From Spirochaetaceae bacterium (GTDB taxonomy: Bacteria; Spirochaetota; Spirochaetia; Treponematales; Treponemataceae), in the NCBI GenBank assembly GCA_017936345.1, contig JAGBFT010000068.1, forward strand, positions 1 through 34,936: DNA of 34,936 bases. The letters run 5' to 3'. The notes beneath the pieces are model-generated. The model made no database searches, was not told the origin of the DNA, and worked only from the letters and a program-made list of their open reading frames with translations. How positions within the stretch are numbered: the first letter of the stretch is position 1; each line of letters begins with the position of its first letter. This document shows positions 13,708 to 25,098 of this stretch, one piece after another. The position numbers and the translations under genes were made by a program.

Positions 13708-13736
13708 TTGACATATTGGAAATTCCGTGAGAGAAT
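13708..13736 (+). promoter_or_regulatory. promoter of sialidase operon 1 (shared module, copy 1)
   Basis: TTGACA (13708-13713), a 17-base spacer, GAGAAT (13731-13736). The spacer contains the short palindrome GGAAATTCC. The block TGGAAATTCCGTGAGAGAAT is identical in the promoter of operon 2 at 21762-21781. Confidence 0.7.
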
Positions 13737-13771
13737 AATCTTGTATGCAAGTAGTTGTATACAAGATTATT
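13734..13771 (+). promoter_or_regulatory. long hairpin/palindrome between promoter and RBS of operon 1
   Basis: Arms AATAATCTTGTATGC (13734-13748) and GTATACAAGATTATT (13757-13771) pair over 15 bp with one G-T wobble around the 8-base loop AAGTAGTT. It starts at the -10 and ends eight bases before AGGAGG (13779-13784). The same structure with compensating base changes occurs at 21776-21818. It could act as a DNA operator or as a 5' mRNA stem; the sequence alone does not decide. Confidence 0.75.
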
Positions 13772-13790: not shown

Positions 13791-14876
13791 ATGAGAAAAA
13801 AAATCTTTTTGCTGGTTCTGTTGACAAGTTGTGCGATTAGTTTGTTTGGACAAAACAGAGATATTGATATTTCGAGTGAAAATATAGGGGGGGGGTATAA
13901 CAGCCTTGTATTAAGCTTTGAGGCAAATACCGGAAGACTGTCTGATGATACGGACGGCGGCCCCTTTTCCGGGAATGCCTTTGATTTTGCTGCTGAGGGA
14001 AGCCACACCTTTGGTTCCCTTCCATGGCTTTCCCTGTACGGAAAAATAGATTTCCGCTCATCGATTAATGTAAATAATGAAAATTTAAGATCTAAGTATC
14101 CTGATGAGGATAAAACTAAACATCCTAATATTTATCCCATTTATATGATGAACGGCACAACAGGTTCAAGTTTTGGGCTGAATTATATTGACCTGGGTGC
14201 TCGTCTTGGTGGTTGGGGTTCTGTTGGATTCCGCCACAACCTGCTCCTCAAAGGGGAGGCTCGCATTCCGCTGACCATCCAGTTGTTGGGTTCTTCCGAT
14301 GAACCCACATTTGCCATTAACGGGAACGGCATGAAACTTGCTGTTGCTCCTAGTGGTGGAAATCCTGTATCTATCTCTGTTGCCCTTTATGGTGGTATTA
14401 ACGCTTTCCCATACCGTATCGGCAAATGGTGGGATGTTCTTCCTGGAGACAAGGTTGGAGTGGATGCAGCTGGGGAAAGAGGTAAAGCAAATGAACCTTC
14501 TATTACAGACTTGTATGGTGGTATTACCATTTCTACCAGCTTTGGCTGGACAGATGTTCCTGTTGTGGAAGATTTTGGTTTAGCCTTAGATGCTAGTTGG
14601 CATACCAATGGTAATACCATTAAGGATAATAGCAATGCAGGTTATACACCATGGGATTGTGATTCTGCGGAAGCCCTTAAGTACAACGGGTTTTTGAGAG
14701 CTCAGGCAACTCTTTCTTATGCACCGAACAGTAAATTCTCTGCTTATGCTCGCTGTAGATATGAATACACCAATATTTTGCCAACTCCTCAAGGAACATA
14801 TTCTATTCGTGACAGAATGCTTCATGATTTTTATGTAATGGCCGGTGTGTCCTACAAGCTTGGAGGTGAAAAATGA
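13791..14876 (+). CDS. phase-variable outer-membrane barrel-like protein, first gene of sialidase operon 1 (ON)
   Basis: A 361-residue exported protein with a signal peptide to about residue 20 (SLFGQ), followed by a Gly/aromatic-rich beta-strand pattern through to FYVMAGVSYKLGGEK, as in outer-membrane barrels. No named family is recognised. Codons 33-35 are three GGG codons in a run of nine G. At nine the frame is intact. At ten the next codons are GTA TAA, and at eight a TAA follows within six codons, so either slip ends translation near residue 35-40. The start follows AGGAGG by six bases. The stop overlaps the sialidase start (ATGA), so loss of translation here may also lower the downstream genes. 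Likely role: surface protein or porin for released sugars (inference). Confidence 0.75.
   Translation: MRKKIFLLVLLTSCAISLFGQNRDIDISSENIGGGYNSLVLSFEANTGRLSDDTDGGPFSGNAFDFAAEGSHTFGSLPWLSLYGKIDFRSSINVNNENLRSKYPDEDKTKHPNIYPIYMMNGTTGSSFGLNYIDLGARLGGWGSVGFRHNLLLKGEARIPLTIQLLGSSDEPTFAINGNGMKLAVAPSGGNPVSISVALYGGINAFPYRIGKWWDVLPGDKVGVDAAGERGKANEPSITDLYGGITISTSFGWTDVPVVEDFGLALDASWHTNGNTIKDNSNAGYTPWDCDSAEALKYNGFLRAQATLSYAPNSKFSAYARCRYEYTNILPTPQGTYSIRDRMLHDFYVMAGVSYKLGGEK
13887..13895 (+). repeat. poly-G tract (9 G) in the operon 1 lead gene
   Basis: Nine consecutive G encode Gly33-Gly35, just after the signal peptide. In-frame at nine. Slipped-strand change by one base in either direction leads to an immediate stop. 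Equivalent in length to the tract at 21897-21905. Confidence 0.9.
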
Positions 14877-16765
14877 TTTTTTTTAAGAAAAAAATAGCTA
14901 TAAGAACCCTCATCGCAGTTGGATTGGTAACTTTCGTGGCTGGTTGCTACAATGTAAGTTACGAGATTCTTGAAGTAACTACCCTGGCTACTAGTGCTAA
15001 AAAGGTTTTTAAGTCTTTGGGGGAAGTTGTTTTGTTTGAAAAAAACAATGGACAGGTAATGATTCAAGATAATGAAGATACAGCAGAGAATCTTGAATCC
15101 ATTGAATACAACAATGGGTTGCGTATTCCTACATCTGTTCTTATTCCTGCTGGTGCCGTATTGCCCAACGGTCAGAGAGTTGGTTCTCAGGGGCGTTTAG
15201 TTGCAGTAGGTGATGCCCGCTGGACTGGTAACAGCGACCTTCCTCAGAAGGCATCTGCCTGGTTACGGTACAGTGACGATGGTGGCAAGAACTGGAGTAA
15301 ACCTCAACTTGCAGTCCACTTTGATGACTACGATATGAGTACTGCAAGTGGATTGACTATGGATGGTGTAGTTACAGGAGATCCCACCATTGGTCGTACA
15401 GCAACTAATCGTCTCATTATGTTGAGTACATTTGGTGGAACTTCCACAGGAAACTGGACAGGTGGATGGTCAAATCGGGGGGATGGGCTCAATCAACCGG
15501 GAGATGCTTATTTTCAAGTTGGCAACTCAACCAATGACTGGAATGACACACAACATTATCTGAGACTGAGAAAAAATACTAAGGAATATTTTGATAAAGA
15601 TGATACATCATTGGAACCTGGAACAGACCCGGATATGGATGGAAAGTATACGGAACCAAAATCTGATGGAGAAGTGTATACTGGTGATTGGATGGCTGAA
15701 GAGTTTCCAGCAACTAATGACAACTACTGCTATTATGTAGATGTAAGAGGTGGAGAAATTAAGAAAGCATCTGCTAATGGGACTTGTGATCCTGAAAGTG
15801 ACCCAGGAACAGGGCTTTTTGTGGATGAAAATTATTTCTTGTATTTGGATAGACATTTTGAACATAAGTTCATGGTTAAACAGTTAAAGAAAGAGGGAGG
15901 AGTTGTTAAAAAAGGGGAAAAAGATGTTCATTGTCATTTGTTTATGGGCTTGTCTCCCTATCAGGTATGGAGAGGTTGTACATTTATTGGTATGAGTTAC
16001 AGTGACGATGGTGGAGTTACATGGAGTCCCCATCGTGATATAACTTACATGGTACGCCCGAAAGAACATTCCGATAGAACGAATCGTTATTTCTTTGTAA
16101 GCCCTTGTGGAGGATACCTTCATGATGGGATGAGTGATGAAGTGGCTGAAAAACAAGGTGGAAATAATCGTCTTTTATTTAGTGCCTACTGTAGTGCTGA
16201 AGCCCCTGTAGTATTCTGGACAGATGATAATGGAGAAACATGGGAACATGCAACAGATGGAGGAAAAGGAGATCAGTATATGGGTAATTCTTCTTCTTCT
16301 GAAACTACCATTGTAGGTCACCCTGATGGTGTTCTTATTGCTATTTCCAGAGGGACACCACCCCAGTGGGCAGTGTCTTTGGATGGTGGCGTAACCTGGC
16401 AACCCAAAGGAAACTTTAGAGATATTCTCCCTGAAGTAAGCGGAAGAAACCTTATGAGTGCCGTTGTCTTGGATTGGACAACAAACACAGCAGGAGATAC
16501 TCTAATTGCATTGAGTGCTGCATGTAGTGCTGGTAATGATCGTAAGAATGGGCATGTTTTTATTCTCTCAATAGAACCTGATGGTAGTGGTAGTTACACT
16601 TTGAATCCAGCATGGAATGGTACTACTGTAAAATCATCGGTTCATACTGGTGATTACGCTTATTCTTCTGTATGTGAACTTGCCAACGGTGATTTGGCCG
16701 TATTCTTTGAGGGGGAAAGTTCAAATTACCTTTTAAAGTTTGTGGATGTAACACATAACGACTAG
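14873..16765 (+). CDS. exo-alpha-sialidase lipoprotein (GH33), operon 1
   Basis: A 630-residue lipoprotein. The signal peptide ends in the lipobox VAGC, acylated Cys25, so it is membrane-anchored and probably surface-exposed. It has the GH33 marks: RIP motif (R84-I-P), candidate acid/base Asp114 in VAVGDARW, and four Asp-boxes, SDDGGKNW (134-141), SDDGGVTW (377-384), TDDNGETW (450-457) and SLDGGVTW (502-509). The C-terminal YAYSSVCELANGDLAVFFE carries the nucleophile Tyr and the terminal Glu. A loop of about 200 residues rich in Asp, Tyr and Cys between Asp-boxes 1 and 2 is large for the family. It should release terminal sialic acid from glycoconjugates. GGAGG precedes the ATG, which overlaps the previous stop. 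It is followed by a terminator-like hairpin. Confidence 0.9.
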   Translation: MIFFKKKIAIRTLIAVGLVTFVAGCYNVSYEILEVTTLATSAKKVFKSLGEVVLFEKNNGQVMIQDNEDTAENLESIEYNNGLRIPTSVLIPAGAVLPNGQRVGSQGRLVAVGDARWTGNSDLPQKASAWLRYSDDGGKNWSKPQLAVHFDDYDMSTASGLTMDGVVTGDPTIGRTATNRLIMLSTFGGTSTGNWTGGWSNRGDGLNQPGDAYFQVGNSTNDWNDTQHYLRLRKNTKEYFDKDDTSLEPGTDPDMDGKYTEPKSDGEVYTGDWMAEEFPATNDNYCYYVDVRGGEIKKASANGTCDPESDPGTGLFVDENYFLYLDRHFEHKFMVKQLKKEGGVVKKGEKDVHCHLFMGLSPYQVWRGCTFIGMSYSDDGGVTWSPHRDITYMVRPKEHSDRTNRYFFVSPCGGYLHDGMSDEVAEKQGGNNRLLFSAYCSAEAPVVFWTDDNGETWEHATDGGKGDQYMGNSSSSETTIVGHPDGVLIAISRGTPPQWAVSLDGGVTWQPKGNFRDILPEVSGRNLMSAVVLDWTTNTAGDTLIALSAACSAGNDRKNGHVFILSIEPDGSGSYTLNPAWNGTTVKSSVHTGDYAYSSVCELANGDLAVFFEGESSNYLLKFVDVTHND

Positions 16766-16769
16766 GTTT

Positions 16770-16810
16770 TGTTCCGTTCAGCCTCGCTAAGGGTTGGACG
16801 GAACATTTTT
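16770..16810 (+). terminator. operon-internal intrinsic terminator
   Basis: Arms TGTTCCGTTCAGCC (16770-16783) and GGTTGGACGGAACA (16792-16805) form a 14-bp stem with two G-T wobbles and an 8-base loop, followed by TTTTT. It lies right after the sialidase stop and inside operon 1, so it probably reduces rather than ends transcription into the three genes beyond. Confidence 0.75.
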
Positions 16811-16864
16811 AGGGAGTGTTTTAGAAAGTCGACTTGTTCGTTGGCTTTTTTATGGGAGATTGAA

Positions 16865-17977
16865 ATGAAAATATTTCTACATAAATTAACAGTATCTTGT
16901 ATGTTCTGTACAATGGTAGTCTGCTTTGCACTTGCCGGTTGTCAGGATGTAGTACGGAGAGTAGATGATAAATATCGCCCTGTAAAAGAACCTGGTTCTG
17001 TAACAGTGCTTGCTGACAGAGCTGATGATTTAGGGGTTCCTATTCAGATAAAAAATTTGAGTGTTGATGAATTAGAGTTAAAAGTTTCTTCCAGTGATAA
17101 TTCTCCAGTACCTTTTGTTCCCATTCTTGAGGAAGGTGTACAGTCTGGTTTTGGGCGTATCACAATAACACCTCCTAGCAATGATGAACCCTTTGGAAAT
17201 TTTACTGCAGTAATTGATGTATGTTCAAAAGAAACTGGAGAAGTATACGATAGTTATGAGTACACCGCCGACAGGTATCCCTACCGGATTTATCAGGTGG
17301 GTAATGAAACCTACAAGTTCGAGCTGGTAAAAATGTTTCACTTTGAACAGAATCGTGGCAATTTTGGAGCTGCCGTGGGAGGTGGAGATGGAATAGTGTC
17401 TCTTTTTACTGGCAATAATGATGAGAATAAGGATGTCAACGAGAAGGGAAGCACTGTTACCATCAAAGACACCAACACTGATAGCCAGAAAGGTACGGGA
17501 TTGACCTTTTATTACAATACCAGCGATACTGGGCAATTCAAGCAAGACCAGTATAACTATGTGGAAATTAAATTCAAATCGGGAGAAACACAGACTCCCG
17601 AATTTGCCTTGTTAGGAGAAGCTGCGGGTGGAGGAAAGTTCGGCTTCTGGTATGATGGGGGATGTATTGGTGCTGGAGAGGGGATTCAAGTGTCAAGTTT
17701 TAGGGTGAACGATTTCTCTTCTCTGTTGCCAGCCCACAGCAGTAGTAGCATTGATTTGACTTATGATGACAGTAGTACCGACTGGTGTGTAATCGGATTT
17801 CACAATAGAAAAGATGGAAAATGCTTGTTTACTGAGAATCTTGAAAACGCAACAGAAAAGACACTGAGTTCAACAAAAGACTTTGACTTTACCAAAGACT
17901 ATACGGTTTTTTATGTGGGACCTGGATCAACGTTGGAAATCGACTACATCGCCTTTTTCAAGCGAGTTGAACAATAG
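16865..17977 (+). CDS. beta-rich lipoprotein of unknown family in sialidase operon 1
   Basis: A 370-residue lipoprotein. The signal peptide ends at CFALAGC (LAGC lipobox). I do not recognise a family. The N-terminal third reads like an Ig-type beta sandwich (VTVLADRADDLGVPIQIKNLSV ... GRITITPP). The C-terminal two thirds look like a jelly-roll, ending in GSTLEIDYIAFF, a pattern seen in carbohydrate-binding modules, so a glycan-binding role fits the context. GGGAG before the ATG at 16865 fixes the start. An upstream in-frame extension would run through the terminator hairpin and lacks a signal sequence. Composition is AT-rich like the sialidase gene and unlike the two esterase genes downstream. 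Likely co-transcribed with them, ten bases apart. Confidence 0.7.
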   Translation: MKIFLHKLTVSCMFCTMVVCFALAGCQDVVRRVDDKYRPVKEPGSVTVLADRADDLGVPIQIKNLSVDELELKVSSSDNSPVPFVPILEEGVQSGFGRITITPPSNDEPFGNFTAVIDVCSKETGEVYDSYEYTADRYPYRIYQVGNETYKFELVKMFHFEQNRGNFGAAVGGGDGIVSLFTGNNDENKDVNEKGSTVTIKDTNTDSQKGTGLTFYYNTSDTGQFKQDQYNYVEIKFKSGETQTPEFALLGEAAGGGKFGFWYDGGCIGAGEGIQVSSFRVNDFSSLLPAHSSSSIDLTYDDSSTDWCVIGFHNRKDGKCLFTENLENATEKTLSSTKDFDFTKDYTVFYVGPGSTLEIDYIAFFKRVEQ

Positions 17978-17986
17978 GAGATTGCC

Positions 17987-19786
17987 ATGAAACGAATTCT
18001 AAAAGATTCGGCAAAGTGTATTTTTGTTTTCTGCTTTTTTGTGGGGCAGCTGCTTGGATGTTCACAAGAGGCTACCTTGGACAATACGGAAGGTGTTGGC
18101 GATGGAGTTGTAGCTCCAGTCTTGCCATTCCAGCAGCTGGTGACCTTTGCTTCTGGGGACAGCCAGCATCACGTCACCAAGGATTTTTCCCTGAGTCTGG
18201 ACAATGGCAGCTGGACTTCCAGCGATACCAGCGTCCTTTCGGTTGATTCCTCAGGCAGGGCAATTATAAAAGAGTATAGTGGGGGAGGATATTCCCGTGA
18301 TATTGAGCTCCGTAACGAGAGGGGTGGGGCTGCCGTGGTGACCGTGCGCTATCCACTGCCCCACGATGGCGTAGGCTACGACAAGCTCACCCTTCACGGA
18401 AAGTTCCGCAGCTACCGCCCGGACACCACTCGGGGAGACAGCATGACACACTGGTGTAGCGGAGAGTTGCTGAATGATGGCTCCACCTGTGCGGACTGTC
18501 CCAACGAGGACCGCTGCATTCCAGAGGGTGCAATCGTAGGTGGTGTGGAATATCCCACCTACTGGAGCCGTCTGCCCCTGTCCATCCATGCAGACAACCA
18601 CGATACCACCAAGGGCTTGTATGCCATTCAGGACAAGGGGACATCAGCTATCTTCCCTAACAATCAGCAGGGTCTGGGTGACAGAGCGGACAACAATATG
18701 AGGCAGTGTACCGCCGGTGTGTACATCGCCTTTGAGACTGACAGTACGAGCATCACCGTGGATGCGGAATATCTCCATTCTTCATCTACCAATGTTACCA
18801 ACGGACGAGCCTTCAGCGGGCTTGACCTGTACAGCAATGAGGGCAGCGGGTGGGTTTACAAGCATACCTTCAAAGACAACGACAAAGATGCCGTTCTGGA
18901 CGCAACTTATTCCTCGGCATCAGGAAAGATGACCAGCTACATCCTGATGCTGCCCACCTACAACGGCTTTGAATTCGGCAAGGAAGAAAACCCCAGTGGT
19001 CTGAAGCTTTTGTTCAGCGAGGGTGCAACTACCTACGAGATAGACCCATTCAACGAGCAGGTGCAAAAGCCCATCCTCATCTACGGAACCAGCATCACCC
19101 AGGGAGACGGTGCCAGTGGCTTGCGTCCCGGCGCCACCTACGCTGCCCAAATCATGTGGGCAACAGGCCGGGAGGTCATCAACATGGGTGTGGCTGGCTC
19201 CGCCCAGATGGAGTACAAGATGGCGGATTTCCTCTCTCAGATTGAAAGCGAGGTATTCGTCATTGACCCGGGCTGGAACTTGACCAGCACCTCCCTTGCT
19301 GCTACCTATTGCAATGCGAATGGTGACGCTGCTGCCATTACAAATGAGGAAGTTGTAAAGCGTGCTAAATACATGGTGGAAACGTATCGTAAGAAGCATC
19401 CGAATACACCCATCATCCTGTGTCCCAAATATCTGAAAAGCAATAACGTGGGTTCCATGGCCTCTACCAAATCTCCTGATACGATAGATATGCCGGTCAG
19501 TTTCGACAACACGGAGAACTATCTGTATGGACGTGAGAGCTTCCTTTTGTACAAGGCATTTCTGGAGCTACAGGCTGACGGTGTAAACAACCTGTACTGG
19601 GCGGAGCAGGGGGTGCCTGGAAATGAAAGTGGTCAGCCCACCAACACTGAAAATTTATTGTATGGTACTGACCTGCACCCGCCCATCCAGGGGATGACGG
19701 ACATTGCAAACTTTATCCTGCCAGCAATTACCGAGGCGGCTCCCCACGTGTATAGCGGGGGAAAGGTTTCCGTTCCAAGCAACTAA
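17987..19786 (+). CDS. SGNH/GDSL-type esterase lipoprotein
   Basis: A 599-residue lipoprotein (lipobox LLGC at about residue 25). After a short linker there is a bacterial Ig-like segment (about 40-120), a Cys-rich beta domain (about 130-350, including CADCPNEDRC) and a C-terminal SGNH hydrolase domain. The latter has nucleophile Ser369 in GTSITQG, the Gly block NMGVAGSAQ, IDPGWN for the Asn block, and DLHPP with candidate Asp562 and His564. The Asp-His spacing is DxH rather than the usual DxxH. Family members remove acyl, often acetyl, groups from sugars. Beside sialidases, a sialate O-acetylesterase-type role is the reasonable inference. GGAG precedes the ATG. From about 18120 the codon use becomes distinctly GC-rich, unlike the genes before it. 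Confidence 0.82.
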   Translation: MKRILKDSAKCIFVFCFFVGQLLGCSQEATLDNTEGVGDGVVAPVLPFQQLVTFASGDSQHHVTKDFSLSLDNGSWTSSDTSVLSVDSSGRAIIKEYSGGGYSRDIELRNERGGAAVVTVRYPLPHDGVGYDKLTLHGKFRSYRPDTTRGDSMTHWCSGELLNDGSTCADCPNEDRCIPEGAIVGGVEYPTYWSRLPLSIHADNHDTTKGLYAIQDKGTSAIFPNNQQGLGDRADNNMRQCTAGVYIAFETDSTSITVDAEYLHSSSTNVTNGRAFSGLDLYSNEGSGWVYKHTFKDNDKDAVLDATYSSASGKMTSYILMLPTYNGFEFGKEENPSGLKLLFSEGATTYEIDPFNEQVQKPILIYGTSITQGDGASGLRPGATYAAQIMWATGREVINMGVAGSAQMEYKMADFLSQIESEVFVIDPGWNLTSTSLAATYCNANGDAAAITNEEVVKRAKYMVETYRKKHPNTPIILCPKYLKSNNVGSMASTKSPDTIDMPVSFDNTENYLYGRESFLLYKAFLELQADGVNNLYWAEQGVPGNESGQPTNTENLLYGTDLHPPIQGMTDIANFILPAITEAAPHVYSGGKVSVPSN

Positions 19787-19801
19787 GGGGGTGAAAAGAT
19801 T

Positions 19802-21670
19802 ATGTCCAAGCTGAAGATATGTTTTTTTGCCACATTGATGGGCTTTGTCCTGCTGTTTGCCGGCGGATGCAAGACCGATGTGGAGCCAGCTTCAAGCAAG
19901 GGGAAGGAAGATGCCAAGACTCCTGTCCCTGTTTTGATAAGCTATGATTCCAGAGAATTGACCTGTTGTATAGATGAGGGGGTAGCAGTGCCAGGCTCTA
20001 CCGTCATGTCTGGGACGGAACTGACAATTATTCCAGCAGAGGGTGAGCCAGTGTTGTTCCTCACTGCCAACGGTCTGCCCTTGCCCTACTCTGGTGACGC
20101 TGCTACAATAACACTCCCGGACACCAGCCCCACGATGGAGCTGAAGGTGGAGAAACGGCAGGCTCTGGCGGAAGAAGCGGGACAGTACAATGTCCGCATT
20201 CTCTTTGGTGGTGAGGCAACCTTCCCCGTCTCCACAACGGAAAGGATTGACAATCTGTTCACTCAATTCAATTCGTACTTCAGCAAGGGGTCCTCCGACC
20301 GCTGGCAGGACTTCAAGCTTTGTAACGGTGCTTATCTGTCCAGTGGCAAGGGCTACAAGGACTGGCTGGACTCTTCCTACAGCGAGACCTTTGCACAGGC
20401 TCCCCATGCTGTTGTGGTAAGCTTGGGGCTTGCTGAACTTGAGGCGGAAAGCTTTGATGAGACAGCCTTTGCCTCTTGGTGTGCTGGCATCCTTTCGGGC
20501 TATGGGCGTGCTAGACCTGGGGCCGTTGTTGTCGCGGTGGGACTTCCTCCCTTGGCTATACTTCCCAGTGTGGAGAAATCCCGCTATGAGGCGGTGGACA
20601 GGGCAATTCGCAGTGCAGTTCGTTCCTCGGGGGCAATTCTGGTGGATGTGGCTGGTCTCTACGCTACTGACCCCAACCTTGCCTCCGATGCCACCAAGGC
20701 AAAGCGTCGTATTACCGAAGAAATCTTTCTGTCTTTCTATAGCAGGATTGAGGCACAGGCGGGCAACCCGGGAGACATGATGATTGATGGCAAGCCCATC
20801 ACCACTACGCCCCGCCAAAAGTGGAGCGGGACCGATGACGGAAACCAGGACACGGCCAAGAGGGAGCTGATTCAGACCATTGCAAGCGGGGACAAGACCA
20901 AGTGGCCCCAGGTTGTCTTCATTGGAGACAGCATCACCGATTTTTATGACGGAACCTACGATAACGACAGCAGAAAATTGAAGATGACCGACTGGTGGAA
21001 CAAGAACGTGGGCTGGGGCAACAACAAGGTTTTGGATGAATCCGGCTCCGCTGCCACCTATCGTGCCTTGAATCTGGGCAATTCCGGCGACTTTACCCAG
21101 TCCCTGCTGTACCGCCTCCAGAAGATTCCTGGGGACGATGGTTCCGGAGCCTATACCGGTGCCTTCCAGTTCAAGGACACGGTAAAGGCTGTGGTGCTGA
21201 TGATTGGAACCAACAACATCGGTGTCAGCAGTCCCAGTAGTACCGCTGTAGGCAACACCAAGTATCAGGAGCGTCCCATCAGCACGGTGGAGGCGGTGAA
21301 GGGCATTCAGGCTGTCATCGGTGTGCTGAAAAAAGGTTTCCCAAATGCCAAGATAATCCTTATGGGTGTCCTTCCAAGGGGAACAAAAACCCAAAGAGAC
21401 GATGTGGACTTTATCCGTCTGCAAGTACTTTCTACCAACCGCCAGCTGTATGACTTGTACGGCTCAGGGCAGGATTCCAGGGTGCAGCTGCTGGATTTGT
21501 ACGAGAACTTTGTGGACTCTGCCGGTGTTCAGAAGAGTGGAAGCTTGGAGGCTCTGGGAGATGTGGGGACTTGTGACAAGCTCTTCTTTGACACAGTTCA
21601 CCCTAACAACGCTGGGTATAAGGTGTGGTGGGACAATCTAAAACCTATTTTGGATGTTATTTTACAGTAA
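19802..21670 (+). CDS. lipoprotein with degenerate plus intact SGNH hydrolase domains
   Basis: A 622-residue lipoprotein (lipobox AGGC near residue 23). Domains: linker; small beta domain (about 40-115); an SGNH-like fold (about 120-320) that keeps the strand order (VRILFGGEA, AVVVSLGLAELE, VVVAVGLPPLA, ILVDVAGLY) but lacks the nucleophile Ser and the DxxH; then a complete SGNH domain (about 365-622) with Ser377 in GDSITD, NLGNSGD, GTNN and Asp597-Thr-Val-His600. The first copy may be a binding or scaffold domain. The intact one should deacylate a carbohydrate, perhaps O-acetyl sialic acid (inference). GGGGGTG precedes the ATG. The last 15 coding bases are part of the 80-bp repeat found again at 25114-25193. 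Confidence 0.83.
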   Translation: MSKLKICFFATLMGFVLLFAGGCKTDVEPASSKGKEDAKTPVPVLISYDSRELTCCIDEGVAVPGSTVMSGTELTIIPAEGEPVLFLTANGLPLPYSGDAATITLPDTSPTMELKVEKRQALAEEAGQYNVRILFGGEATFPVSTTERIDNLFTQFNSYFSKGSSDRWQDFKLCNGAYLSSGKGYKDWLDSSYSETFAQAPHAVVVSLGLAELEAESFDETAFASWCAGILSGYGRARPGAVVVAVGLPPLAILPSVEKSRYEAVDRAIRSAVRSSGAILVDVAGLYATDPNLASDATKAKRRITEEIFLSFYSRIEAQAGNPGDMMIDGKPITTTPRQKWSGTDDGNQDTAKRELIQTIASGDKTKWPQVVFIGDSITDFYDGTYDNDSRKLKMTDWWNKNVGWGNNKVLDESGSAATYRALNLGNSGDFTQSLLYRLQKIPGDDGSGAYTGAFQFKDTVKAVVLMIGTNNIGVSSPSSTAVGNTKYQERPISTVEAVKGIQAVIGVLKKGFPNAKIILMGVLPRGTKTQRDDVDFIRLQVLSTNRQLYDLYGSGQDSRVQLLDLYENFVDSAGVQKSGSLEALGDVGTCDKLFFDTVHPNNAGYKVWWDNLKPILDVILQ

Positions 21671-21735
21671 CATAAATTCTTTTCTTCCTTCCTAGTTTTG
21701 GCTGACCAGGAACATCTTCTTGGTCAGCCTTTTTT
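21656..21735 (+). repeat. 80-bp direct repeat, copy 1
   Basis: 79 of 80 bases match 25114-25193 (A at 21664, G at 25122). This copy covers the last five codons of the SGNH gene including the stop, and the terminator. The two copies bracket sialidase operon 2, with 3,458 bases from the end of one to the end of the other. Confidence 0.95.
21700..21735 (+). terminator. intrinsic terminator of sialidase operon 1
   Basis: Arms GGCTGACCAGGAA and TTCTTGGTCAGCC pair over 13 bp with one wobble around CATC, followed by six T. Identical to the terminator of operon 2. Confidence 0.92.
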
Positions 21736-21752
21736 AAATCAGAAAATTTAAT

Positions 21753-21781
21753 TTGACAAAATGGAAATTCCGTGAGAGAAT
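21753..21781 (+). promoter_or_regulatory. promoter of sialidase operon 2 (shared module, copy 2)
   Basis: TTGACA (21753-21758), a 17-base spacer ending in the same block as copy 1, and GAGAAT (21776-21781). Spacing and sequence match the operon 1 promoter. Confidence 0.7.
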
Positions 21782-21818
21782 TATCTTGTATGCAAGATGA
21801 TGTATACAAGATAATCTC
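21776..21818 (+). promoter_or_regulatory. long hairpin/palindrome between promoter and RBS of operon 2
   Basis: ATTATCTTGTATGC (21780-21793) pairs with GTATACAAGATAAT (21802-21815) around AAGATGAT. Three further pairs (GAG with CTC) extend it across one bulged A. Compared with operon 1, an A-T pair has become T-A on both arms, a compensatory change that argues the pairing itself is under selection. Confidence 0.75.
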
Positions 21819-21837
21819 AATTCAGGAGGAACATGAA

Positions 21838-23552
21838 ATGAAGAAGTTTGGAAGAATAATATATTATTCTTTATTATGTAGTGTTTTAGTTATATTGGGG
21901 GGGGGTGTAAACAAGAACCCTCTATAACGAAGCCCGAAGGAATTCGGGTGGACAATCCTTCAAATCAGCCAGGTGGAACAGGAGAAGAGGATTCCGTACC
22001 TGGAACTGATGGAGAAGTAAATGTTGTAATAGGTAATCCAGAAAAAGTATATAAAATTCCTGCCAATTTTAAAGATAATCTGAATAGTACAGAAAAAGAA
22101 GTGTCTGTTTGGAACAATGTGGCAAATACCCAACAAAGTGATATTTTAGGGCGTAATTATTCAATATTATTGGGTGACAATCCCAAAACTGATGGATACG
22201 TCATAAGCGGTTCAGCCACAGAGGAAAGGACTAACTTAAGTACAGGTCCAGGCTCATACCGTATCCCTGCTATAACAAAGGCCGTTGTGAACAATCAAGT
22301 GCGGTTGATTGCGGCATTTGATGTCCGTTATCGAGGGGGACACGATGGTGGAGGTGATACGGGGGCGGCGGCAAATGGTGGCAGCGATATCACTATCATG
22401 TATAGTGATGACGGTGGTGCAACGTGGACAGCAGCTAAGAATAAGGATACAGGAAAAAAACCTGCAATTGATGTGAAGAATCTCTACAATGACCGTGGCC
22501 TAGGTGATGGAACCCCAAGTCCGACTGATACATTTGATGTTTGTGATCCTCAACTTTCTGTGGCTCCTGATGGTATAGTGTATTGTGGTATGGCTGCTGG
22601 AAATGGGACTATTGGAACTGCTGGTGGCGGACCAAATTTCCGTATGTGGAAGAGTACTGATAATGGTGAGACATGGGAAGAGGTGGAAGGTTCCAGTGGA
22701 GATGGAACAACTGGAATCTTCAAGACTTGGAGCATTGAAGAAAGCAATGGGCTTTTGACCACTCCAGGTCACGGAATCATCCTTACAAAGGATGTCCCTG
22801 GTTCCAGCAATTTTACCAAGGGTAGAATGGTCATGCCAGTTTTTCAAAAACAAAAGAGTAATTCTGGAAATATTTTCAGGATGTATTTGGCAACTGGTAC
22901 TGGCAAGCCAGAAACTTGGGATAGCAGTACTTTTTCTGCCCCCTTCACAAGAAATTATGGTGTTGAGGAGGGGCAGATATGCCAGCTGGATGACGGTAGT
23001 CTGCTGATGTTTGCCAAGACATATGCTACTTCTGGCTCTGGCCAAGATGCCGTTGGTAGGTTTACTTTGTTCAAAGACAATAAATGGAATGAGGTGCATG
23101 AGTCGGATCAAAAGTTGATTGGCGGACAGTCTGGACAGGGAAGTATCCTGAAGGTTGCGGAGGGGGACGGTGATACAAAGGCAGGTGTTATTGCCTTCGC
23201 CTACACTGGGCAGAAGACCCAAAACCGGAACAATGGAAACTGGGGAAACATAGGGCGTGGAGATATTACAATCGCATTGACTCGGGATGTTAGTGCTTTG
23301 AACAGTAATGGTGAGCCACTTGATTCGGAAAGAGTATATTATCTCAAGATTCGAACCCCTCGTCAGGGTTATTTTGGGTACACGGATATGGTGATGATTG
23401 ATGACAAGACCCTTGGAATCTTGTATGAAAACTATAGTGGTGAAAAAGATTCTAATAAGGGAGACTTGGCACCAGATGGAACCAATGCTGTGAATGGTAT
23501 GAGGTTTTGTCGCATAGATATTGGTGAAATCATCAAAGATTTGCAGAACTAA
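21838..23552 (+). CDS. phase-variable exo-alpha-sialidase lipoprotein (GH33), operon 2; OFF as sequenced
   Basis: AGGAGGA (21824-21830) precedes ATG 21838. The signal peptide runs to a run of nine G; as sequenced the frame then stops at TAA 21925-21927. Adding one G (or removing two) joins it to the open frame running to 23552 and creates a lipobox Cys (LGGGC with ten G, LGGC with seven), giving about 571 residues. The restored body is a GH33 sialidase: SYRIP (about base 22258), Asp in AAFDVRY, Asp-boxes SDDGGATW and STDNGETW, and C-terminal GYTDMVMI with LGILYEN (Tyr nucleophile and Glu). The enzyme core is undamaged, which favours reversible switching over decay. A GTG at 21948 could start a leaderless-sequence cytoplasmic form but would lack the export signal. 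Confidence 0.87.
21897..21905 (+). repeat. poly-G tract (9 G) at the lipobox of sialidase 2
   Basis: Nine G directly before the TGT codon of the predicted lipidated Cys. Nine gives a stop 20 bases later; eight gives GTG TAA at once; ten or seven gives the full sialidase frame. Confidence 0.92.
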
Positions 23553-23625: not shown

Positions 23626-25098
23626 ATGAAGTATGTGGCCAAGAGATTTTTATTTTTTTCTTTGAGTTTTTTTCTTGTGAGTATACTGATTGCTCAACCA
23701 GCCTCACCTATGCACGAGGGAACCAATGGGTTGTTCGGTAATGATACTGATAGTGTAACTAGTACCACAGGCTGGAGTAGTGTGGATTTTGATAAATTTC
23801 TGTTCACTGGTGCGTATGGATATGTGCAGATTGATAGCTCAAATACAGGAGCCCTCATATTAAAAACACATATGTTGAATTTGGCAGGAATGTTCAAAAT
23901 GGGAAACTTGACACTTGGTCTTTCTTACCAAGGAGCATTGGGAGGGAATACTAGTAAAGGAATCTCATTTTCCAATAACATGAATGGTGACAGTAAGATA
24001 TCAACAAGTTCTTTCCCTCTTTTCCATAATATACGCTTGCTTGTTGGTATTCCGATGAATTCTGGTATGAATTTAGGGATTCGTGCTGGTGTTGACTTTG
24101 GGGGTGAAGTAGGAAAAACTAGTATGGACTCCCCAAAGACTTTGGCAGATTTGCGGAGTTACACTCGGACAGATACCTTTTCCTACAAGCCCCAGTTTTC
24201 TGTTGGAACCTCATTTGGTGTGGGAGATTATACCTTTACGCCAACCCTAGATTTTTCGTTGAGTAGCGTCAATGGTACTTCTGTCGGTCAAAGCTCAACT
24301 TCTGGATACCATTTAGGACCGATTGAGGCAGAAGATGGAAGTGTGTATGAGGCAAGTAGAAAGATACGTACGTATACACCTGCCTTTACCTTGGGTTTGA
24401 ATGTGGGGCTACCTTCTGACAACGAGGCAATCTCATGGAGCAGCAAGGTATCCTACGGATTTAGTGCAACTGTCCAGCCGGAAAAGTCTGAATATACGTA
24501 TGCTTATAATGGGCCATCAAAAACTTATACCGAGCTTTTGCATACTTATCGTCCAGACAAGATGTTTGCCCATACTGTTGCACTCAATATCGTGGGGTCT
24601 AAGATTGTGTCGCCTCGCCTCACGGTAAAGGGAAAGGCTCAGTTTGATGTAAGCTATACGGATTCATTGAGTGGAGGTACAACCAAGATTGATGGAACAG
24701 GGACTCCAGTGCAGTCAACCAGGACAAAGAATATCTATTTGGCCCCAGTGGTTTCTCTTGCCGCCAATGTGCAACTTTCAGAAATGGTGAACTGGTATAC
24801 GGGACTAGTTTGTATTCCTGTACGGTACACAACGACAAATACACGCAATTATGCCGAGTCTGGCATCGTTGTAGCTGGAAAGAGTGAGACTAAGTCTGTG
24901 ACGCACAACATCCACTATCCTATCATCAGTCAGTTTGGAACAGGAGTGCAGGTGCAGCCAGCGGATGAACTGACCATTTCTTTCGGGCTTCTCTTCGGCT
25001 CATCATCTGAACAGATTGAGCTTACAACCATCAGTTCCGTCCTGAGCAACGCCAACATCCGGCTGGGCTTGATCTGGAAAGATGTTCCCGACAAGTAA
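23626..25098 (+). CDS. outer-membrane barrel-like protein, second gene of sialidase operon 2
   Basis: A 490-residue exported protein with a signal peptide to about residue 24 (SILIAQ). The remainder shows alternating amphipathic beta strands with Gly/aromatic enrichment (LNLAGMFKMGNLTLGLSYQGALGG, FSVGTSFGVGDYTFTPTLDFSLSS, ELTISFGLLFGSSSEQIEL) and a final strand IRLGLIWKDVPDK. This suggests an outer-membrane barrel. No named family is recognised, and similarity to the operon 1 barrel-like protein is not obvious by eye. AGGAGA before ATG 23626 fixes the start. It lies 73 bases after the sialidase stop, across a 9-bp hairpin that lacks a T-run, so the two genes are likely co-transcribed. It ends shortly before the second copy of the 80-bp repeat. 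Confidence 0.75.
   Translation: MKYVAKRFLFFSLSFFLVSILIAQPASPMHEGTNGLFGNDTDSVTSTTGWSSVDFDKFLFTGAYGYVQIDSSNTGALILKTHMLNLAGMFKMGNLTLGLSYQGALGGNTSKGISFSNNMNGDSKISTSSFPLFHNIRLLVGIPMNSGMNLGIRAGVDFGGEVGKTSMDSPKTLADLRSYTRTDTFSYKPQFSVGTSFGVGDYTFTPTLDFSLSSVNGTSVGQSSTSGYHLGPIEAEDGSVYEASRKIRTYTPAFTLGLNVGLPSDNEAISWSSKVSYGFSATVQPEKSEYTYAYNGPSKTYTELLHTYRPDKMFAHTVALNIVGSKIVSPRLTVKGKAQFDVSYTDSLSGGTTKIDGTGTPVQSTRTKNIYLAPVVSLAANVQLSEMVNWYTGLVCIPVRYTTTNTRNYAESGIVVAGKSETKSVTHNIHYPIISQFGTGVQVQPADELTISFGLLFGSSSEQIELTTISSVLSNANIRLGLIWKDVPDK

Follow-up and report, generated by a model that had tools for sequence, protein, structure and literature searches.

A nine-G tract between signal peptide and enzyme in a treponemal sialidase gene: a probable phase-variation switch within an apparent five-gene regulon

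The DNA analysed here (the window) is a stretch of 34,936 nucleotides, contig C117 of a metagenome bin (1.84 Mb, 75% complete) from an uncultured Treponema. We conclude that the run of guanines near the start of its second sialidase gene (sialidase 2) is very probably a translational phase-variation (contingency) tract, and that the gene belongs to a set whose members have a common type of promoter and a common probable operator and would be switched individually, each by its own tract. The original prediction concerned sialidase 2 and did not include a second G9 tract at 13887–13895, the promoter and palindrome common to both genes, or the orthologous G11 run of a related species; it covered only one gene of what looks, from the sequence, like a five-gene regulon. 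The elements of the sialidase 2 unit are the following:

21700–21729, plus strand: terminator-like hairpin with a T-run (13-bp stem followed by TTTTTT), dividing the upstream esterase gene from sialidase 2
21753–21781, plus strand: predicted sigma-70-type promoter, TTGACA - 17 nt - GAGAAT (10/12 matches, TG before the −10)
21785–21810: palindrome CTTGTATGC-N8-GTATACAAG, a probable operator situated close to the transcription start, five copies in the genome
21824–21829, plus strand: ribosome-binding site AGGAGG, read from the sequence
21838–21896, plus strand: signal-peptide coding segment MKKFGRIIYYSLLCSVLVI, ending where the tract begins
21897–21905, plus strand: nine-G tract; at its present length the signal peptide and the enzyme are in different frames
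21906–23552, plus strand: GH33-like sialidase frame, open from Cys, 548 codons plus stop
21925–21927, plus strand: TAA stop at which the frame opened by ATG 21838 ends when the tract has nine G
23626–25098, plus strand: TDE2508-family-like outer-membrane beta-barrel gene downstream of sialidase 2, probably in the same transcription unit

The ribosome-binding site lies 8 nt upstream of ATG 21838, and translation from this codon as written gives MKKFGRIIYYSLLCSVLVILGGGVNKNPL, which terminates at the TAA at 21925–21927. As it stands, the sialidase 2 gene is out of frame, and its predicted product is the 29-residue leader peptide only. A TGT codon (Cys) at 21906 directly follows the tract, and the enzyme frame that it opens closes at the TAA at 23550–23552. 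Since the distance from the ATG to the tract is 59 nt, tract lengths of 3k+1 fuse the leader and enzyme halves, while the third frame terminates immediately after the tract (GTG TAA). These coordinates reproduce what had been read earlier, namely a ribosome-binding site and a signal peptide leading to the G-run, a nine-G frame that ends at 21925, continuation into the enzyme with ten or seven G, and an immediate stop with eight; the enzyme frame, described then as about 540 codons, contains 548.

The sequence matches of sialidase 2 are exo-alpha-sialidases (E 4e-7), and sialidases are also the best fold matches to its AlphaFold model (E about 1e-11), which is of low confidence (mean pLDDT 54.5, pTM 0.67) and from which the fold-level match alone was used. 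The protein contains a YRIP motif at residues 118–121 and the Asp-box-like sequences SDDGGATW and STDNGETW, and its Pfam BNR score falls narrowly under the cut-off. By sequence and predicted fold, with the YRIP/FRIP motif and the Asp-boxes, it is GH33-like, and we treat it as a predicted sialidase. An orthologue with 62% identity across the whole frame was found in Treponema sp. RGIG7474, a bin from water-buffalo colon (genome G003, locus L024). In the alignment of the two genes (541 codons), codon positions 1, 2 and 3 differ at 167, 122 and 304 sites, respectively, and the NG86 estimates are dN 0.32 and dS 2.48, the latter close to saturation, with a dN/dS of about 0.13. This pattern indicates that the enzyme frame is under purifying selection.

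In the relative, the corresponding position is taken by a G11 run; the distance from the ATG is again 59 nt, the conserved Cys comes next, and the gene is likewise out of frame, with an offset opposite to that of the G9 run. An in-frame (ON) allele was not present among the two alleles compared, both of which are OFF; each species is represented by one consensus sequence from a metagenome bin, in which homopolymer counts may be off by one. In a search of 274 Treponemataceae genomes, sialidase 2 was found in its own genome and G003 only, and the family of the outer-membrane protein (OMP) encoded at 13791 is likewise confined to these two. A tract that is fixed in position, variable in length and placed so as to interrupt a conserved frame has, judged from the two genes, the appearance of a contingency locus. 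The comparison of related strains that had been proposed as a check, made here with a related species, revealed a tract that is not uniformly nine, being G9 in one species and G11 in the other.

The length of the tract also sets it apart from ordinary runs. In the window, six G or C runs have length 6 and two have length 9, with no run of length 7 or 8. In the whole genome to which it belongs, 250 runs of exactly G6 and three of G8 were counted, with a decrease of about ninefold per added base; extrapolation of this decay (lengths 6 to 8) leads to an expectation of ~0.4 runs of 9 or more, against 16 observed, the longest being 13. The single-contig 3.06-Mb genome of another member of the genus (G001) contains 53 runs of G6, none of G8, and then 19 runs of 9–15. 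The run-length spectrum is two-humped in both genomes, and the long runs are beyond genome expectation; a good share of them are located at the N-terminal ends of genes or in the spacer between a −35 and a −10 hexamer, and others are without evident role. The sialidase 2 tract combines several properties expected of a contingency locus: a slip-prone length, a position at which a length change alters expression, an excess over expectation and a length difference between species. Across the genus, G10 runs mostly have an A on the 5' side and a T on the 3' side, often as TATA-Gn-TATAA, which exceeds what composition predicts.

A second unit with the same layout is found upstream in the window:

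13708–13736, plus strand: promoter TTGACA - 17 nt - GAGAAT, nearly identical to that of sialidase 2
13740–13765: second copy of the palindrome, upstream of gene 13791
13791–14876, plus strand: OMP-like gene of 361 aa (OMP-A), G9 in frame (ON); orthologue L051 with G11, out of frame
13887–13895, plus strand: nine-G tract of gene 13791, encoding Gly-Gly-Gly
14873–16765, plus strand: sialidase 1, GH33-like, without a G tract; the stop of gene 13791 and the start of sialidase 1 overlap

When up to three mismatches were allowed, the palindrome CTTGTATAC-N8-GTATACAAG was detected at five sites in the genome, and at all five a G9 or C10 run lies in a gene N-terminus 70–121 nt downstream. Two of the genes encode sialidases and three encode predicted outer-membrane proteins:

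OMP-like gene 13791 (window): G9, in frame
Sialidase 2 (window): G9, out of frame
Third sialidase (C71): C10, out of frame
TDE2508-like OMP (C47): G9, in frame
OMP related to 13791 (C55): G9, out of frame

Because the chance that a given site falls less than 150 bp from a run is ~0.003 (16 runs in 1.84 Mb), the pairing of palindrome and tract in five of five cases is not attributable to chance. Descent from one cassette was considered and is not a simple explanation, because no fewer than three unrelated families are represented in the set, and the place of the tract in the leader varies: it may precede the signal peptide, coincide with it or follow it. The palindrome is absent from eight other genomes of the genus (two mismatches), no regulator gene for it was found, and an Rfam scan of the window gave no match; from its position and recurrence, it is probably an operator to which a regulator would bind. 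The promoter spacer GGAAATTCCGTGAGA (within 13708–13765 and 21753–21810 of the window) is strongly conserved in the set, beyond what sigma-70 needs, and may represent a second protein site. The C10 run of the third sialidase, which has the same palindrome, is N-terminal and out of frame (L020:2057–2066 / L055, C71:6656–6665 of the same genome).

All five tract genes have tract-bearing orthologues in G003, with the runs at the same position across 60–80% protein identity, unequal lengths in four of the five pairs, and a mixture of ON and OFF states. OMP-A is ON with G9 here and OFF with G11 in G003; the third sialidase is OFF with C10 here and ON with C10 in G003 (L043:1495–1504). Sialidase 2 (G11) is out of frame in G003, and the OMP genes L054 and L042, as well as a sixth member, L040, are in frame with G10. 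The six G003 members all retain the TTTGACA promoter, and their palindromes are intact or degraded. Upstream of L051 (G003 C71:11076–11115), a 12-bp unit, CTTGTATWCAAG, is present three times in tandem at a 14-bp spacing, an arrangement that favours a protein-binding site rather than an RNA hairpin. The phase switch of an intact GH33 enzyme that had been predicted is therefore supported by the G11 tract of the relative, by purifying selection, by a genus rich in G9–G15 runs and by the mixed states of the sister genes; length variation within a population and the lipoprotein nature of the product, which were part of the same claim, stand as expectations.

The promoters of the five genes are of one type and similar in layout, and the palindrome at their start sites would act as an operator occupied by a protein. 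Within or next to its signal peptide, soon after the start, each gene has a G or C run of its own. We propose that slipped-strand mispairing would alter the length of each run, bringing each gene in or out of frame independently. An in-frame length would allow the export of sialidase 2, as a candidate lipoprotein, with the Gly residues before the Cys encoded by the tract, while in the OFF state the early stop of translation might lower the expression of the downstream outer-membrane gene by polarity. The result would be a mixed population under one common signal, in which the combination of sialidases and outer-membrane proteins differs from cell to cell; chance probably decides in each cell which surface proteins and which enzymes for mucus sugars are on or off. 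A fuller version, to which we assign an even chance, is that a single regulator acts through one operator over the whole set, each member being subject to slippage in a tract of its own, that induction by host signals would then activate a random combination of surface genes in each cell, and that the sialidase 2 tract may also tune anchoring.

Other readings of the tract were weighed against this switch. Programmed slippage of the RNA polymerase or the ribosome on the G-run would provide a constant low fraction of full-length protein with no need of DNA switching. In bacteria, slippage during the transcription of homopolymers has been described for A/T runs (PMC1088944), and the sialidase 2 consensus of both species is one base off an in-frame length, which a slippage-dependent gene could tolerate. 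However, sister genes behind the same promoter have an in-frame tract of G9 (13791, L017) or G10 (L040, L042, L054), the states of OMP-A and the third sialidase differ between orthologues, and the DNA itself differs in tract length in most pairs; we consider this explanation unlikely, although slippage could leak some product in OFF cells. An assembly or consensus error that conceals an invariant, in-frame length is very unlikely. The sequences do come from metagenome bins, and G-runs are hard to sequence and assemble (PMC9187656), but an error accounts neither for the existence of the runs nor for their conserved position, their placement in N-termini and promoter spacers, or the five of five palindromes, and a miscounted G would still leave the switch in place.

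The two remaining alternatives concern the enzyme frame. An internal start at GTG 21948, which is in frame, has AAGGA a few nucleotides 5' and opens an ORF of 534 aa, would produce a cytoplasmic sialidase whatever the tract length; this codon is not conserved, since the matching Val is GTA in the relative, and a non-exported sialidase would be of little obvious use, which makes this start highly improbable. That both available sequences of sialidase 2 are out of frame would suit a decaying pseudogene, but 548 and 551 codons are open in the two species without further lesion, dN/dS is about 0.13, and the promoter, the ribosome site and the Cys are all intact, so that decay appears extremely improbable. 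The earlier argument from the undamaged enzyme frame is borne out by the selection estimate and the two codon counts, and the further inactivating changes in relatives that could have spoken against it were not found in L024 (551 open codons).

With regard to the ON product of the phase-variable gene, the Cys adjoining the 3' end of the tract is conserved in both species, and each tract is one base away from the same in-frame length, which encodes Gly-Gly-Gly-Cys and places Gly at positions −1 to −3. The residue at −3 of a lipobox is usually hydrophobic. Because spirochaete lipoboxes are plastic and loosely defined (PMC12457778), lipidation is plausible, and the product can be regarded as a candidate lipoprotein in which Gly at −3 is unusual. 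The proposal that tract length tunes the number of Gly residues before the Cys is sound in its arithmetic, which works in steps of three; nevertheless, no tuning is visible, since both species sit beside one and the same in-frame length.

In the syphilis agent, in which culture and genetics are hard, the poly-G-switched genes are surface antigens. The poly-G runs of T. pallidum (tprE/G/J, tp0126, tprL) are about 7–11 long, variable in length and tied to outer-membrane protein genes, in the same bacterial lineage (PMC7864442). Unlike the tracts described here, which lie at the coding start and alter the frame, the best-studied ones are in the promoter and alter transcription; in addition, an operator-like palindrome accompanies the tract here, and sialidases are affected as well as OMPs. 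A T. pallidum-type promoter switch was rejected for sialidase 2, whose tract is inside the coding sequence and whose promoter spacer has an ordinary 17 nt. Elsewhere, G10–G15 runs were observed between TTGACA and a −10-like hexamer, with spacers of about 17–21 nt (L016, L022, L045, L061, L069). Two of them are in the same genome as the window, preceding an uncharacterised protein (L016:1479–1489, C30) and a trypsin-like protease (L022:2013–2023, C107), and the other three are in the genomes of relatives; judging from their placement, these are probable transcriptional switches resembling that of tp0126. In three species a G run is also retained in the region preceding a gene for a WecA-like glycosyltransferase, with lengths of G10, G10 and G12 (C121 of the same genome as the window, L023; G003 C55, L047; G001, L061).

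Switches of related kinds are known in other bacteria. Slipped-strand mispairing is reported for the nanH3 sialidase of Gardnerella (PMC11868660, citing Kurukulasuriya et al. 2021), which resembles sialidase 2 as a sialidase gene switched by slippage in a simple repeat, in an unrelated actinobacterial genus; the sources consulted on it mention neither a shared operator nor linked OMP switches. In a Bifidobacterium breve pilus locus, the first gene of an operon, which encodes a surface protein, is divided by a G-tract into a signal-peptide part and the body, and polarity is expected, but the gene encodes a pilin instead of an enzyme, there is no lipobox, and few clusters only are involved (PMC9187656). 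In Neisseria hmbR and hpuAB, poly-G tracts within the reading frame likewise frameshift surface proteins for nutrient acquisition, in that case haem uptake as opposed to sialic acid release (PMC3786947). A short search of the open literature yielded no report of an operator-defined set with a frame switch in every member, or of a tract that forms the lipobox. To our knowledge, no palindrome common to all switched genes is known in Neisseria. Poly-G switching in treponemes and repeat-switched sialidases were already known, and the new element is the set of tract genes defined by a palindrome. Gut treponemes appear to apply poly-G switching to mucus-degrading enzymes and to a whole palindrome-defined set, in a layout that joins a common transcription signal with an independent random switch for each member gene. 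This points to a further role of phase variation in the family, the diversification of how its members feed on host glycans.

The gene order around sialidase 2 is conserved, as the beta-barrel gene also has an orthologue (60% identity) 3' of sialidase 2 in L024. The cluster at 13791–23552 of the window, which comprises the OMP gene, sialidase 1, a gene for a 402-aa protein, two GDSL esterase genes and sialidase 2, looks like a locus for the release of host glycans (sialic acid), and the GDSL esterases are possible sialate O-acetylesterases. Through the overlap of the two genes, translation of sialidase 1 may be coupled to the switch of gene 13791. The start of sialidase 1 (14873–14884) reads ATGATTTTTTTT, with a T8 run at codons 2–4 that constitutes a possible slippage site.
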